Positions 3,011-17,339 of a stretch of 45,179 nt of DNA are shown here, piece after piece. Under the pieces are notes generated by a model. It had not been told where the DNA came from. It made no database searches and saw only the letters and a program-made list of their open reading frames with translations. Both the position numbers and the translations under genes were made by a program. The stretch is taken from positions 1-45,179 of the IMG/VR virus record IMGVR_UViG_3300036863_000017, one strand, 5' to 3'. How positions within the stretch are numbered: position 1 is the stretch's first letter; the number at the start of each line of letters is the position of its first letter. Source of the DNA: a virus.

Positions 3011-5152
3011 ATGACAAGAGAACAAGCCGCAAATTTTTTGCGAAAAGAATTAGATTTACACGGATTAAATGATTGGCATATTAGAATAACAGCAGTTGAT
3101 AAAGGCTTTCTTGGCCTTTGTTCATACAAGGACAAATGTATTATCATAAATGCCCATCATATCGATATTCATTCAGACCCTGATTTAATGAATACAATAC
3201 GGCATGAAGTAGCACATGCTATAGTTGGCCCTACACATGGACATAATGAAGTATGGGCATCTAAAGCTAAAGAGATTGGCTGCGATAATACTGCACCATG
3301 TTCAAATTTGATGTTATCACCTGATGTAATAGATGCCATTAGGTCAGGCGCGGATGTTCAGGTTACATATGAGACAGAAGTAATACGCAGACCTAAATAT
3401 GAAATTACACGGCTTCAAGACAAATGCGACTTTTGTGGTAAAGTAGCCAAATCAAAATCTGAAAAGTTAATAGAGAATGATGACCCATTCAAACCTAACA
3501 TTAAGATGTTAATATTAGAATGCGGTCATACTCTTATTAAACGTATTCCAAAAGGAACACCATTTCAGACCCTTGTAAGTGATAACGATGAAGAATTAGT
3601 TAAAAGTTGTAAGCATGAGTTCAATAAGAATATTTGCCTAAACTGTGGCAAATACAGACCATTTCCATTTCAAGTAGAAGGTATGCAATTTGTTGAACAG
3701 GCACTAGCAATAAATAAAGGTGCCGCGATATTTGATGAAATGGGATTAGGTAAGACCATCCAAGCACTAGGTTATCTCAGATTTCATCCCGAAGCATTCC
3801 CTGTTCTATACGTGGTAAAATCTGCTATTAAGTTTCAATGGTTTAAGCAGATATTAACATGGATGGGACCAGAATACATGCCACAAATCATATCAGGGTC
3901 AAATGACTACCTGATTCCAGGACTAAAAGGTTACATTATTTCCTATGATATTGTGGTTCCTAAGACTCGCAAGTCGAAAAATGGAAAAGAAATCAAACAA
4001 GGATTTGACATTAAGAAATTTGATGGTCTAATAAAGACCGTCATATTGGACGAGTGCCAACAAATCAAGAATCCAGATTCAACGAGAACACAACAAATCA
4101 GACGGATAGTAAAGGATAAAAACGTAATTGCTCTGTCAGGCACACCTTGGAAAAATAGGGGTTCTGAATTTTTTAGCGTGTTGAATATGCTCGCGCCCAT
4201 CAAATTCTATTCATACGAAGCCTATATCAGACAATGGGTGGACAGATGGATGGAAGGAAATAGATGTAAAGAAGGTGGAATACGTAGTCCAGAAAGATTT
4301 AAGGAATACATTAAAGATATTGCACTACGCCGTGAAATATCAGATGTAGCAATTGAAATGCCTGATGTTACGAGAACACCATTTCATTGTAATTTAGACG
4401 ATTTGGAACAAGATACATATGATGATGCAGAAGGTGAATTTGTCAAATGGTATAATGACTTAGTAATAGGTGGTGATGAAGAAAAGCTAACAGGTATGCA
4501 AATTTTAGCTAAACTCTCCCGTATGAGACACATTATGGGATTAGCTAAAATACCTGCTACAGTTGAATTTGCCGAAGAATTTTTTGAGGAAACAGACCGT
4601 AAGCTCTGTATCTTTTTTCATCATAAAGATGTTGGAGAAATATTGTATCAACAGTTTCAAGAAAAATTCGGTAAAGATATTCCTGTAATGAAGTTGACAG
4701 CAGAATTAAATGACTTAGAACGATTTGAGATGCAAGAAAGATTTAATAAACATCCACGCGCATTTATGATTGCATCTACCCTAGCAAGTGGAGAGGGAAT
4801 TAATTTACAAACATGTAGTGATGCAATATTACATGAAAGACAATGGAATCCTCAAAATGAGGACCAAGCTGCTCCGGGTAGATTTAGAAGGATTGGCGCA
4901 AGAACTGACATTCCTGTATCGGTTACATATATCTTAGCAGAAGGAACAGTAGATACCATATTACACGGAATAGTAGAAAGGAAAAGAGTTTATTTCCATA
5001 AAGGAATGAATAAAGGTGAAGCACTTCCTTGGAACGAGAATGATTTTGCAAAGGATATGGCTGAACAGATTGTAAAAAGATGGCGAGAAAAGAATAAGAA
5101 CAAAGTCAAAGTAGAAGGAAAAAAGACTATAGGGGAAATATTACAAGTATGA
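3011..5152 (+). CDS. SprT-like metalloprotease fused to SNF2 helicase
   Basis: 713 residues. Residues 1-90 are SprT-like: HEVAH at 65-69 with a third His at 76-78, the zincin pattern of SprT/Spartan proteins. Residues 139-213 carry Cys pairs (CDFC; C...H; CLNC) typical of the zinc knuckles before phage SNF2 helicases. The helicase core follows, with GLGKT at 245-249 (Walker A), DECQ at 347-350 (Walker B), SGTPW at about 376, and a C-terminal lobe with GEGINLQ and an arginine-rich motif VI (GRFRRIGAR). SNF2 proteins are ATP-driven DNA translocases. The fusion suggests removal of DNA-bound protein during replication or repair, which is inference. Confidence 0.9.
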   Translation: MTREQAANFLRKELDLHGLNDWHIRITAVDKGFLGLCSYKDKCIIINAHHIDIHSDPDLMNTIRHEVAHAIVGPTHGHNEVWASKAKEIGCDNTAPCSNLMLSPDVIDAIRSGADVQVTYETEVIRRPKYEITRLQDKCDFCGKVAKSKSEKLIENDDPFKPNIKMLILECGHTLIKRIPKGTPFQTLVSDNDEELVKSCKHEFNKNICLNCGKYRPFPFQVEGMQFVEQALAINKGAAIFDEMGLGKTIQALGYLRFHPEAFPVLYVVKSAIKFQWFKQILTWMGPEYMPQIISGSNDYLIPGLKGYIISYDIVVPKTRKSKNGKEIKQGFDIKKFDGLIKTVILDECQQIKNPDSTRTQQIRRIVKDKNVIALSGTPWKNRGSEFFSVLNMLAPIKFYSYEAYIRQWVDRWMEGNRCKEGGIRSPERFKEYIKDIALRREISDVAIEMPDVTRTPFHCNLDDLEQDTYDDAEGEFVKWYNDLVIGGDEEKLTGMQILAKLSRMRHIMGLAKIPATVEFAEEFFEETDRKLCIFFHHKDVGEILYQQFQEKFGKDIPVMKLTAELNDLERFEMQERFNKHPRAFMIASTLASGEGINLQTCSDAILHERQWNPQNEDQAAPGRFRRIGARTDIPVSVTYILAEGTVDTILHGIVERKRVYFHKGMNKGEALPWNENDFAKDMAEQIVKRWREKNKNKVKVEGKKTIGEILQV

Positions 5153-7945: not shown

Positions 7946-8353
7946 ATGCCTATCATTCAATTTTCGGAGAAAGACTTACTTCGTGGCAAATTGATTACTC
8001 CCGGATGGTATAGAGTATTGATTGATGAAGTAGGTGAATCTCTTAGTAAGGACCAAGGTTCTACTAATTATCCTGTAGAAGCTACAGTTCTTTTTCATGG
8101 AGACACAGGAGATACTGAATTTAAAGGTGTTCCACTTGAATGGAACTTTAATTCAAAGGCTATTGGCTTCGCGGTTGGTTATTTGAAAGTTCTTGGAGTA
8201 GAAGTTAAACCGGGAGTTAGATTTGATTTGGCTAAAAGTAAAGGAGAACAAATCGACGTGTTTGTAGAGAATCAAGAGTATCAAGGAAGAATGATTAATA
8301 AAGTTAATCATAAGTATCGTGAACCACGTAAAGATGTTCAGGCGGCTGCTTAA
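7946..8353 (+). CDS. SSB-like / DUF669-type protein
   Basis: 135 residues. The order (PGWYRVLIDEV, then YPVEATVLF, then a long insert and IDVFVENQEYQGRMINKV) follows the beta-rich phage proteins grouped as DUF669 or SSB-like. These bind single-stranded DNA and accompany Sak4 ATPases. It lacks an acidic C-terminal tail of its own. The next gene encodes a separate, very acidic peptide. Confidence 0.65.
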   Translation: MPIIQFSEKDLLRGKLITPGWYRVLIDEVGESLSKDQGSTNYPVEATVLFHGDTGDTEFKGVPLEWNFNSKAIGFAVGYLKVLGVEVKPGVRFDLAKSKGEQIDVFVENQEYQGRMINKVNHKYREPRKDVQAAA

Positions 8354-8370: not shown

Positions 8371-8496
8371 ATGCCAAGTAACGGAGAAGATAAAGAAGTA
8401 AAAGAAGAAGAATTAGATGATACAGTTGATGGTGAAGATGAGGAAGATACAGAAGATGAAGAAGAAGAAACAGACGTAACTGATGAAAATGAATAA
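8371..8496 (+). CDS. Very acidic 41-aa protein
   Basis: ATG at 8371 has a strong GGAG 7 nt upstream. Of 41 residues 24 are Asp or Glu, there are few hydrophobic residues, and the chain should be disordered. It follows the SSB-like gene directly, so it may act in trans as the acidic tail that recruits partners in normal SSBs. Alternatively it may mimic DNA. Both are inferences. It ends just before the structured leader of the cold-shock-like gene. Confidence 0.65.
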   Translation: MPSNGEDKEVKEEELDDTVDGEDEEDTEDEEEETDVTDENE

Positions 8497-8525
8497 CAAG
8501 ATATTCATCTGATTAATTTAACACA

Positions 8526-8620
8526 CTTAAATTCTACATCTTATTCCTACCTGCTGGGGGAAAAAATAAGATGCGCGTGTAAAGTCTCAAGAACTTTGAG
8601 ATGCGCTAATAGAATTTAGG
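8526..8620 (+). ncRNA. Three-way-junction RNA element
   Basis: Closing stem 8526-8536 pairs with 8610-8620 (11 pairs, one G-U). A second stem 8537-8545/8565-8573 (9 Watson-Crick pairs) starts at the next base. A third arm has TCTCAA (8585-8590) with TTGAGA (8596-8601), extended by GCGT-type pairs (8575-8578/8603-8606). The second loop (8546-8564) has CCTACCT and GGGGG and could make tertiary contacts. It resembles no known class I can name. Its position suggests a cis-regulatory leader of the cold-shock-like gene. Confidence 0.55.
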
Positions 8621-8645
8621 ACATATAAAGTTAATTAGGTGGATA

Positions 8646-8712
8646 GGATGGTCCATTACTCTGTTACTCTAATCCAAAACAGATGTGACAGTTTAAAAGT
8701 AGTGGGCCATCC
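8646..8712 (+). promoter_or_regulatory. Long hairpin before cold-shock-like gene
   Basis: 8646-8660 pairs with 8698-8712 (15 pairs including G-U). The stem continues after a 6-nt bulge as 8661-8667 with 8685-8691 (7 pairs). It is followed by CTTTATTTTA, so it may act as an attenuator or weak terminator. The Shine-Dalgarno of the next gene lies 20 nt downstream. An alternative lower stem (8639-8644/8709-8714) competes with the main stem. Confidence 0.55.
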
Positions 8713-8741
8713 ACTTTATTTTACATAAATTGAGGAAACTA

Positions 8742-8999
8742 ATGGCAGAAGAATTAACAGAAGAACAAGTTGCAACAAAACCAGTAATTGGAAAAATTAA
8801 TTTTATATCAGAAGAAGGTTGGTTTTTCATCATTAGTAAAGAAATTCCTTTTGAACGTATCTTCGGACATTGGACTGCATTACGTGGAGATACTTTAAAT
8901 TTCAAGGAATTAGAAGAAGGAATGAATGTAGAATTTATTCCTATTAAGATTCCTGAAAAGGGATACAGGGCTATTAAAATAAAGGTGATTAATGAATAA
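8742..8999 (+). CDS. Cold-shock-like (CSD/OB-fold) protein
   Basis: 85 residues from the ATG at 8742, which has GAGG 7 nt upstream; a TTG at 8730 lies before that Shine-Dalgarno and is rejected. GKINFISEEGWFFI, then FERIFGHWTALRGD, then LEEGMNVEF and GYRAIKI follow the order of CspA-family proteins (GxVKxF..xGFGFI, DVFVH.S.., EGQxVEF). The aromatic RNA-binding positions are only partly kept. Such proteins bind single-stranded nucleic acid as chaperones. The unusually long structured leader (8497-8741) is reminiscent of bacterial csp genes. Confidence 0.65.
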   Translation: MAEELTEEQVATKPVIGKINFISEEGWFFIISKEIPFERIFGHWTALRGDTLNFKELEEGMNVEFIPIKIPEKGYRAIKIKVINE

Positions 9000-9234: not shown

Positions 9235-9405
9235 ATGCCATCACATCCTGATAGGGTAAGACGTAATTATTGTGAACATGAATTTAAAGTTATTCAGGGT
9301 GTGACTGTATCTGACATGATTAAATTTGCATTTTATTGTGTCAAATGTGGTTTCATAGGCAAGTCTTGGTTTCCTGGTATAGATAAAGAACCAGTAAATG
9401 ACTAA
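9235..9405 (+). CDS. Small zinc-ribbon protein (56 aa)
   Basis: ATG at 9235, stop overlapping the polymerase start by 8 nt. Cys and His at YCEH and CVKC make a four-ligand zinc site in 56 residues. It sits immediately before the UDG-polymerase gene, so it is probably translated together with it. Role unknown. Confidence 0.65.
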   Translation: MPSHPDRVRRNYCEHEFKVIQGVTVSDMIKFAFYCVKCGFIGKSWFPGIDKEPVND

Positions 9406-11083
9406 AAAATATGTCCCAGGAATGGGTAATGCCGGGGCAAAATTAATGTTCTTAGGCGAAGCCCCATCATATGATGAAACCATTACAGGTAAACCATTCA
9501 CAGGACCATCTGGTAGGGAATTAGATAAGTTATGTAAAGATTCAGGAATAAATAGAAATGAAGGATGGGTATCAAATGTATTCAAATATGAAATACCATC
9601 TAATCCGAAAGGTAAGAAAATTCCGGCTTGGATTCGCGCGAAGAATATTGGCATTAATGTCGAGGAATCATTAAGTGAATTACAAAATGAAATTAATGCT
9701 ATTAAGCCAAATTGTATATTGGCTCTTGGTGGTACTGCTCTTTGGGCTATTACTGGGAAAACCAAGATTACTAATTATCGTGGTTCTATTATGTTGGGTA
9801 TGGGCCGCAAATGTGTGCCTACTTATCATCCTGCGCACCTATTACATCAAGAAGGAGAAATCAAAGGATATTGGAACAGATATATAATGATATTTGACTT
9901 CAAACGGGCCTATCAACAAAGTAAGTTTGAAGAACTAGTATTACCTCAGAGAACACTTCAAATTTGCAAATCTTCATATGACTTACATGCATTTTATGAA
10001 AGATACAAACATCTGGAAAAAGTTTCCGTGGATATTGAAGCTGGCGGTAGTTGTATTCCTATTTGCATTGGGCTTGCATTTAATAAATCACATGGGTTAT
10101 GCATTCCTTTATGGAGTAACGATGGGATTAGTAATATACCAGATACTGATATGGTCCAAGTGTGGATTAAATTAGCTGAAATATTACAAAGTCATGGAAT
10201 CATAGGACAAAATTTCAATTATGATAAAGATAAAATCAAAAAATTGGGATTTACTATAAAGAAACTAGTGTCTGACACTATGTTAAAGGCATTTGCCATT
10301 AACCCAGAACTTCCTAAAAGACTTGCCTTCAATCAAAGTATATATACTGAGGAACCTTTCTATAAAGATGAAGGAATGTATGAGGGGAAACTAGAAGAAC
10401 TATTTTTAGGCTGTGCGCGAGATGCGTGTGTTACATATGAAGTTGATGAAGGCATGGACCCTGATTTAGATGAATTAGGCCAGAGAGATTTTTATGAAAA
10501 CTTCCTTATGAAATTACCTGAATTTTATGGTGAAATGGAAAATACTGGATTTGGACAAGACATAGTAGTTAGAGATAGATTGATACATAAGTATGTCGAA
10601 TGGGATGAGAAACTTAAATATGAATTATTCAAATTAACTAATCAAGAAGTCAATTGTAATTCACCTAAACAAGTATATTCTCTACTTTTTGATACATTAA
10701 AATGTCCTGTTCGTAGAGGAACTGGTGAGGAAGAACTTACCTCACTTTTAAATCTACAATCTTTTACAGACCAAGATAAAAGAAGAATTGTAGAAATCAT
10801 ACTTGAAGATAGGAGAGTTCGTAAAACATTATCAACTTACTTAATGGCATTACCAGATTTCGATGGAAGAATGCGAACCACATTTTTTCCTTGTTTAGAG
10901 ACTGGACGTAGTTCAACAGGACAACAAGACCCACCTATTAGACCTGTAATGGATGTTAAAACTGGTAAGTTTACTGGTAAGAAGAAAAAAGGACAGAACT
11001 ACAAGGCATTGGGAATGGCATTTCAAACTATGACGAAACATGGTGATATTGGTGCGGATATAAGGGAGATGTTTATTCCATGA
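9398..11083 (+). CDS. UDG-DNA polymerase A, N-terminal half (split gene)
   Basis: 561 residues. Residues 1-170 are a family 4-type uracil-DNA glycosylase domain (GEAP at 20-23, PFTGPSGRE, PTYHPAH at 141-147). Residues 205-350 are a 3'-5' exonuclease, with D212 and E214 (exo I), QNFNYD (exo II) and RDACVTYEV at 341-349 (exo III). The thumb and start of the palm follow. The frame stops right after DIREMFIP, the segment that directly precedes polymerase motif A in family A enzymes. The remainder is encoded at 12024-12968. UDG-polymerase fusions are known in phages such as SPO1. Confidence 0.9.
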   Translation: MTKKYVPGMGNAGAKLMFLGEAPSYDETITGKPFTGPSGRELDKLCKDSGINRNEGWVSNVFKYEIPSNPKGKKIPAWIRAKNIGINVEESLSELQNEINAIKPNCILALGGTALWAITGKTKITNYRGSIMLGMGRKCVPTYHPAHLLHQEGEIKGYWNRYIMIFDFKRAYQQSKFEELVLPQRTLQICKSSYDLHAFYERYKHLEKVSVDIEAGGSCIPICIGLAFNKSHGLCIPLWSNDGISNIPDTDMVQVWIKLAEILQSHGIIGQNFNYDKDKIKKLGFTIKKLVSDTMLKAFAINPELPKRLAFNQSIYTEEPFYKDEGMYEGKLEELFLGCARDACVTYEVDEGMDPDLDELGQRDFYENFLMKLPEFYGEMENTGFGQDIVVRDRLIHKYVEWDEKLKYELFKLTNQEVNCNSPKQVYSLLFDTLKCPVRRGTGEEELTSLLNLQSFTDQDKRRIVEIILEDRRVRKTLSTYLMALPDFDGRMRTTFFPCLETGRSSTGQQDPPIRPVMDVKTGKFTGKKKKGQNYKALGMAFQTMTKHGDIGADIREMFIP

Positions 11084-11817: not shown

Positions 11818-12031
11818 AACGACCACAGAAGAATTAAGAAGAAAATTTAATAATGAATTTAGATTAAGTAAATGGCCTGCAACATATGAGGTAGATTCTG
11901 AAACATATGCTAATGTATGTCAAACAATATTTGAATGGGCTGGGGATTTAGGTTTGGTCAAAATAGCAATTGGACCTAATAATGGAATTATGTTCAAAAA
12001 CGTAGAATTAATACTTAAGAAAAATGACTAA
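11807..12031 (+). CDS. Hypothetical protein with TTG start (74 aa)
   Basis: The frame begins with TTG at 11807 because no ATG is available before the conserved-looking part (TEELRRKFNNEFRLSKWPATY). Residues 20-65 (YEVDSETYANVCQTIFEW to IGPNNGIMFKNVEL) look like a real folded small domain. It overlaps the upstream gene by 11 nt and the C-terminal polymerase gene by 8 nt, so translation may be coupled. Confidence 0.65.
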   Translation: MEYKTTTEELRRKFNNEFRLSKWPATYEVDSETYANVCQTIFEWAGDLGLVKIAIGPNNGIMFKNVELILKKND

Positions 12032-12968
12032 TAAATTAGTCTTTATACAAGCAGACAGTAGCCAAGCGGAATCAAGAGTAGTTTTTTTACTAGCCAATGA
12101 CGAACAAGCATTAAAGGATATAGATGAACATGACTATCATGCACTTACTGCATCGTGGTTTTTCGGCGGTAGTGAAAATGATTATAGTAAAAAGATACTT
12201 GGCTATGAATCACCGATTAGGTTTGCAGGGAAAACTTTACGACATGCGGGCCATCTTGGAGCTGGAAAACGTAGAGCAGCAACTGAACTCAATACCCAAG
12301 CAAGGAAGTATAAAATATCTATTCAAATTAATGAGGCTATCGCTGAACGTGCATTAAAAATATTTCATACTAAACAACCTAAAATTCAACAGGTATTCCA
12401 TTTTGAAGTAATCAATTCTCTCAAGATTAATAGGCGACTAGTCGCGCCAGTTCCATATGGCATTAACTCAAAAATAGGAGGTATCCGAACCTTTTATGAA
12501 AGATGGTCAGATGAATTATTTAGGCAAGCATTTAGTTATTTACCTCAGAGAGCAGTGACAGATAATACAAAGGCTTCAGGACTAAGAATAAAGAAATTAA
12601 TTCCTCAAATTAAAATTTACTTAGAAGCACATGATGCCTTACTTTTTGGAGCACCTGAGAATCAGGTCGAGGAATGGTCTGAAATAATTAAATATGAATT
12701 TGAAAGGCCAATTAGATTTGAAAACTGTAGTTTAAGTAGACGTGATTTAATCATACCATGTGAAATTGAAATAGGAGATAATTATCGTCAGTTAAAAAAG
12801 TTCAGTAGAGATATTCCAATTATTAGACCACCTATTATTGAACCTGAATTAGTTCCAGTAAGTATAACAGAAAAATACACTGTTATAGATTTACCTGAAG
12901 ATTCAAAGAAAGATAGTATAATTTATTATGCCAATGAAATACGAGATAGTATTAACAATCCGGAATGA
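12024..12968 (+). CDS. DNA polymerase A, C-terminal half (split gene)
   Basis: 314 residues. KLVFIQADSSQAESRVV carries motif A with catalytic D11. Residues 66-82 (RFAGKTLRHAGHLGAGK) are motif B (O-helix), and H203-D204 in EAHDALLF is motif C. All three catalytic motifs are intact. The sequence starts where the upstream half ends, with only about three extra residues (MTN). The two halves therefore together make one full family A polymerase and probably assemble as two chains. No intein or splice motif was seen. Confidence 0.9.
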   Translation: MTNKLVFIQADSSQAESRVVFLLANDEQALKDIDEHDYHALTASWFFGGSENDYSKKILGYESPIRFAGKTLRHAGHLGAGKRRAATELNTQARKYKISIQINEAIAERALKIFHTKQPKIQQVFHFEVINSLKINRRLVAPVPYGINSKIGGIRTFYERWSDELFRQAFSYLPQRAVTDNTKASGLRIKKLIPQIKIYLEAHDALLFGAPENQVEEWSEIIKYEFERPIRFENCSLSRRDLIIPCEIEIGDNYRQLKKFSRDIPIIRPPIIEPELVPVSITEKYTVIDLPEDSKKDSIIYYANEIRDSINNPE

Positions 12969-17252: not shown

Positions 17253-17337
17253 GCCAGCTTGGTGGAATTGGTATACACACAAGACTTAAAATCTTGCGGC
17301 CATTAAGGTCATAAGAGTTCAAATCTCTTAGCTGGCA
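17253..17337 (+). tRNA. tRNA-Leu (UAA)
   Basis: 85 nt with all arms: acceptor GCCAGCT with AGCTGGC (7 pairs), D-arm GTGG...TATAC, anticodon arm CAAGA/TCTTG with loop CTTAAAA (anticodon UAA), a long variable arm as in class II tRNAs, and T-arm AAGAG-TTCAAAT-CTCTT. CCA is not encoded. The phage uses TTA leucine codons heavily, so this tRNA would support its translation. It lies exactly at the convergence of the two transcription fronts. Confidence 0.97.
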
Positions 17338-17339
17338 CT

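Follow-up and report, generated by a model that had tools for sequence, protein, structure and literature searches.

A covarying, uncatalogued RNA family at a fixed place in the early operon of an uncultured phage group

The window analyzed here is the whole 45,179-base virus record IMG/VR IMGVR_UViG_3300036863_000017. Between a small acidic ORF and a cold-shock-domain protein (Csp) gene, it contains a real structured RNA that is under strong selection in the plus sense and represents a previously uncatalogued phage RNA family. The element is present at the matching place, 3′ of the acidic ORF and 5′ of a variable or cold-shock-like gene, in approximately 70 distinct related phages, which form an uncultured group with genomes of about 45–47 kb and carry it in the early (replication) operon. 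It probably regulates the downstream genes. We tentatively favor, with a probability of roughly 0.42, a cis RNA in the early-operon transcript that would act as a conditional attenuator or elongation-control element and not as a strong terminator.

RNA folding of positions 8497–8760 gave −83.3 kcal/mol. None of the 200 dinucleotide shuffles, which gave −48.2 ± 4.4, was as stable (0/200; z = −8.0). A preliminary description of this region had proposed a three-way junction followed by a bulged hairpin of 22 pairs at 8646–8712. Both are present in the predicted fold within 1–2 bases of the earlier coordinates, and the pair count was about right, as the hairpin (P2) consists of a 15-bp lower stem, a 6-nt bulge and a 10-pair upper stem. 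The junction domain had been drawn too narrowly (8526–8620), because an overlooked 18-bp outer stem, P1 (8502–8519/8628–8645, mean pair probability of 0.96), encloses the three-way junction and abuts P2. The element and its neighbors are arranged as follows.

7946..8353, plus strand: SSB-like protein gene (phrog_378, E = 5e-4), used as the anchor for relatives
8371..8496, plus strand: small acidic ORF, 41 aa, D/E-rich, preceding the element in essentially all relatives
8502..8519, plus strand: 5′ strand of outer stem P1 (fold), with conserved UUCAUC near its start; covaries in relatives
8526..8620, plus strand: three-way junction insert within P1 (fold), closed by an 11-bp stem (8526–8536/8610–8620)
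8537–8573, plus strand: insert arm 1 (8537–8544/8566–8573), 8 bp and then 6 bp above
8575–8578/8603–8606 and 8584–8590/8596–8602, plus strand: insert arm 2, with conserved CGCUAAUAGAA 3′ of the arm
8628..8645, plus strand: 3′ strand of P1 (fold), whose conserved GAUA end abuts P2
8646..8712, plus strand: hairpin P2, lower stem of 15 bp (8646–8660/8698–8712)
8661–8691, plus strand: P2 upper stem-loop, 10 pairs, with subclass-conserved UACUCUAAUCC.AA.ACAGAUGU
8692–8697, plus strand: P2 3′ bulge UUUAAA, 6 nt (fold)
8713..8722, plus strand: U-rich tail ACUUUAUUUU (consensus among relatives, GCYUUU)
8732..8737, plus strand: Shine-Dalgarno (SD) of the next gene (sequence; GAGGA at 8732–8736), with ATG at 8742
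8742..8999, plus strand: cold-shock-domain protein gene, 85 aa (PF00313, 27.2 bits, just over the cut-off of 27)

A DNA search of a phage collection with the window returned no relatives. Relatives were gathered stepwise at the protein level, using the cold-shock-like protein and the SSB-like anchor encoded upstream as queries, which led to the IMG/VR loci L002–L179. The relatives share one layout after the small D/E-rich ORF: P1, a variable insert, a two-base linker, P2, a pyrimidine/U tail, an SD and a start codon. A protein-independent DNA pattern, GTGATAGGGG...CCCCGCYTTT, matched six IMG/VR loci, two of which had been collected previously (L148, and L180, which is the contig of L171). The four new loci (L181–L184) all place it between the SSB/acidic ORF and the Csp (4/4). 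A covariance model built on P2 (R1) found 75/83 and 63/72 of the fetched loci, two sets that share contigs. Of 24 complete contigs of 44.6–47.8 kb, 23 gave exactly one site with R1; the 24th (L151) also has one element, recognized by eye. The single-copy, fixed position and the nearness to a ribosome-binding site are established. The window copy does not match R1 and belongs, with L024 and L025, to a divergent subclass with the same layout and place. As exceptions, P1 is missing from L007, which has a P2 of one of the other subclasses (A-type, see below), and from L082, which has a short P2-like hairpin; a typical element was not seen in L022 and L116. SSB relatives were absent among 84,980 bacterial species genomes, and 39 pattern matches in bacterial species genomes, with R1 scores of at most 23 bits, look like chance. 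A search for close cultured relatives and for the host found none.

Covariation in related phages, a test named in the preliminary description, proved overwhelming. Pairing across 22 helix positions reaches 96.8% in a set of 69 non-redundant cores and falls to 35–48% when one strand is slid. In the 12-bp lower helix of P2, 99.4% of cells are paired, both-sided changes occur at 11 of the 12 pairs, and the covariation score is 0.977, against 0.227 ± 0.020 for shuffled data. Because the helices of these 69 cores had been located by pairing, the P2 test was repeated with flanking motifs as the only guide. All elements anchored in this manner (38/38) pair at 11 or 12 of the 12 positions, which excludes a search artefact. 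The motif-anchored helices contain 34 G-U and only one A-C combination, which indicates selection on plus-strand RNA. The helices are kept through hundreds of compensatory changes, and the fold z-score averages −7.0 for whole elements (all below −3.4) and −2.0 for inserts. The structure, its covariation and its sense are established. The earlier failure to match a known RNA class also stands: at the gathering threshold, Rfam 15 reported only tRNA in the whole window, a permissive search of the element region gave only chance eukaryotic sno/miRNA matches without a credible sub-threshold score, and six relatives gave nothing at E ≤ 1. A published description was not found in the open-access literature searched, which is not proof of absence.

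The consensus reads [GC]A[UC]UCAYU (P1 5′ strand), an insert of 5–120 nt, and RGUGA-UA-GGGG (P2, 12 bp)-loop-CCCC-GCYUUU, in which UA is the 2-nt linker at the P1–P2 junction. The sequence of the P2 lower helix is nearly free, and its length and both ends are constrained. Directly 3′ of P2, the tail is conserved as G 0.90, C 0.76, Y 0.99, U 0.91, U 0.96 and U 0.76. Subclasses A, B and C were drawn by eye from the P2 top and the insert. Subclass A has a P2 top of AACGUAGC..GCCGUAUAAC and a three-way-junction insert with conserved GGAAAAAUA, a variable hairpin with a CUCACGU loop, and a GCC..GGCC hairpin. A kissing contact between this loop and ACGU in the subclass A P2 was considered and fails in some members; a possible tail–junction pairing (AAAAG/CUUUU) was noticed by eye in some members of this subclass. 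Subclass B has a P2 top of AAYAC..AUUAC and either the insert motif UCAGAA..AUAAGUUGA or almost no insert. The AT-rich subclass C comprises the window, L024 and L025, with a P2 lower stem of 14–15 bp, the 3′ bulge UUUAAA and a conserved top carrying UACUCUAAUCC and ACAGAUGU; each lower stem (GGAUGGUCCAUUACU, GAUGACUAUCAUAU or GGGUAACUGUUACU) is fully paired, although the three show no relationship in sequence. Insert junctions like that of the window occur in L025 and L096, and the subclass A junction is of another type. L096 shares the junction arm GCG..CGCUAAUAGAA with subclass C and differs in its P2 top.

The window genes from about 0.65 to 16.9 kb all lie on the plus strand except for one small minus-strand ORF, and the element (8.5–8.7 kb) is in the middle of this operon, which encodes an SNF2-like helicase with an SprT-like domain, Sak4, SSB, Csp, UDG-PolA and primase. 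The late genes occupy the minus strand from 43 to 17 kb. The helicase is a 713-aa protein (3011–5152) that fuses an SprT-like metalloprotease domain with an SNF2-type helicase (Pfam). The UDG-family A DNA polymerase is a single ORF of about 820 aa in L002 and L003 and is split in the window (9398–11083 and 12024–12968), where approximately 940 bp with five small ORFs is inserted inside the polymerase domain; Rfam found no intron family in this insertion. A phage tRNA-Leu(UAA) differs in position, lying at the gene-arm junction in the window (17253–17338), between SSB and the acidic ORF in L024 (3225–3311) and L025 (3536–3619), and at 1770–1857 in L019. The acidic ORFs of the window and its relatives (41–94 aa) are conserved in position and hardly in sequence; they could take the place of an acidic tail, which the neighboring SSB lacks. 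Both RNA-binding motifs of the window Csp differ from those of its relatives (WFFI in place of WGFI, and FGH in place of FFH), and most phage Csps in the group keep RNP2 (FFH).

The element had initially been regarded as a leader tied to the cold-shock gene. A Csp gene does lie 0.44–2.0 kb downstream of SSB in all 61 usable SSB-selected loci (61/61), but only in 43 of 76 cases does it directly follow the element, an approximate share because the automatic assignment skipped starts without a recognized SD. The other next genes encode an RHH protein or unknown proteins, and the Csp then lies further downstream. The acidic ORF, on the other hand, precedes the element in essentially every case. 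The element therefore tracks operon position and not csp itself. The genes found between the element and the Csp are recurrent, encoding a ~270-aa protein, a ~132-aa protein or RHH-like proteins. They are the next gene in L016 and L058; L012, L054 and L151; and L005, L067, L074 and L076, as if the site just 3′ of the RNA element were an insertion hot spot.

In our preferred explanation, control of elongation within the operon, the cis action on transcription and the identity of the binding partner are the parts that we infer. RNA polymerase would leave the Sak4/SSB/acidic-ORF half of the operon with P1 folding behind it. P2 would then fold at the RNA exit channel with the short pyrimidine/U tail in the hybrid, and together they would form a pause or a terminator that is partial and conditional, controlling the amount of transcription that reaches the second half (Csp, UDG-polymerase and primase). 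The conserved P1 base, UA linker and P2 top are probably a handle for a protein that changes the outcome, which may be RNA polymerase itself, a host factor or the phage Csp. The next gene varies and the element, its position and its tail persist, which we count in favor of elongation control. Because the distance from the end of P2 to the next start codon has a median of 28 nt, no promoter fits between them; a transcription start downstream of the element, proposed earlier as a refutation, is implausible in the window, where the gap to the ATG is 29 nt including the SD. Like intrinsic (Rho-independent) terminators and attenuators, the element has a GC-rich hairpin and a short U-rich tract just 5′ of the next gene. 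Unlike them, it has a short tail spaced by a conserved GC, and its conserved loop and upstream domain are unnecessary for termination. A strong canonical terminator is rejected by E. coli standards because of this spaced, short U tract and because only 6 of the 69 elements pass the d’Aubenton-Carafa rule and 63 fail (median d of −22.7; the E. coli rule may not be that of the host). The stems qualify as terminator stems, and the tails score weakly. No alternative (antiterminator) fold of the element was identified.

The phage Csp deserves mention as a candidate partner. CspD lowers termination in E. coli, a precedent for terminator suppression by a Csp (PMC9765468), and the ligand consensus of CspB is GTCTTTG/C (PMC7825780). 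The GCYUUU tail is close to this consensus, and GYYUUU occurs in 38 of the 69 elements, the likeness being that of a loose pyrimidine motif. By analogy with these proteins, autoregulation by the phage Csp through the element is a testable idea, nothing more. The specific proposal that the RNA domain and a measured hairpin of about 12 bp act on the transcribing RNA polymerase with the phage Csp as the trans factor seems rather unlikely, if conceivable.

T7 RNase III (R) sites, which separate the stability of operon parts, are also intra-operon hairpins in which roughly one helical turn separates the base from an internal loop. By comparison, P2 could be cut by RNase III or block an exonuclease, uncoupling the stability of the operon halves. 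The lower helix, fixed at 12 bp with an arbitrary sequence, the internal loop and small hairpin above it, and the position within the operon suit such a boundary. We nevertheless consider it rather doubtful, as there is one site per genome and not several, and as the conserved U tail and P1 base would be unnecessary. About as doubtful is direct binding of RNA polymerase by the abutting stem-loops, leading to readthrough of downstream pauses and terminators (processive antitermination), as with HK022 putRNA, a V-shaped pair of stem-loops bound to the zinc domain of the RNA polymerase β′ subunit (PMC9378689). Like putL and putR, the element would be a cis RNA of a phage early operon, here in single copy, with two long abutting stem-loops and conserved facing bases (P1 base, UA linker and P2 base). 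However, the likeness is to the published layout description alone, with no sequence similarity seen; the element lies mid-operon, about 8 kb in and not near the promoter, its P2 sequence is free, its insert is large and variable (5–120 nt), and put is not known to make use of a U-rich tail such as the one conserved here. A trans-acting phage small RNA ending in the P2 hairpin and U tail likewise appears doubtful. It would explain a compact, highly structured, single-copy element with a terminator-like 3′ end, but among the promoter-like sites listed, none is on the plus strand within 8497–8741. The fixed place between the acidic ORF and the next ribosome-binding site, kept even in the four loci found by the pattern alone, also counts against it because a free gene should move.

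The acidic ORF always lies upstream, and P1 starts 4–8 nt past its stop codon in most members and within the ORF in approximately 18 of 78, suggesting translation-linked attenuation, in which a ribosome finishing the ORF would cover the P1 5′ strand so that P1 folding reports translation or release. This is improbable, as P2 forms either way, no competing fold was found, and compact genomes yield such spacing anyway. Recoding at the acidic-ORF stop was also considered, but in many members P1 extends into the end of the ORF, and the idea was abandoned for that reason. The architecture recognized in the preliminary description, a junction domain followed by an attenuator-like hairpin, is conserved and resembles that of riboswitches with terminator expression platforms, but the inference drawn from it, a small-molecule riboswitch or an RNA thermosensor controlling Csp, has become quite improbable. 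In subclass A, strands and loops of the insert junction are indeed conserved (GGAAAAAUA, CUCACGU and GCC...GGCC). Unlike in riboswitches, however, the junction domain is not universal, and conservation lies in the P1 base and P2 instead of an aptamer core. Several members dispense with the insert (L008, L057, L160 and L171, for example, have loops of 5–25 nt in its place), which rules out an essential aptamer role and makes a ligand riboswitch unlikely. The E. coli cspA leader thermosensor is likewise a structured RNA 5′ of a cold-shock-domain gene; in contrast, the element is not tied to csp, and its compact, fixed helices are predicted to barely change from 5 to 55 °C, with the SD of the window weakly paired. 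Sequestration of the SD by the P1 loop, prompted by L003 (UUAUCCU/AGGAUAA), was also rejected, since insert–SD pairing across 67 elements is no better than chance (mean z of 0.09). Action at the DNA level, as an origin or a single-strand hairpin, would suit a single-copy element adjoining replication genes and is highly improbable. The U tail and the G-U/A-C asymmetry speak for RNA, and the GC skew follows transcription, with the cumulative skew turning at about 17 kb, where transcription converges, and not at the element; on the skew and the asymmetry, a replication origin was rejected.

Phage biology gains here an RNA family that is uncatalogued, covaries strongly and occurs in a single copy in almost all complete members examined, the phage group being uncultured and widespread. 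The element is a fixed control point halfway along the early operon. Should RNA polymerase be its target, phages would have a new solution to the timing of their early genes, and a role would emerge for the phage-encoded cold-shock proteins, which are always just downstream. An elongation-control pair of RNA and Csp, if true, would differ from both lambda N/nut and HK022 put.
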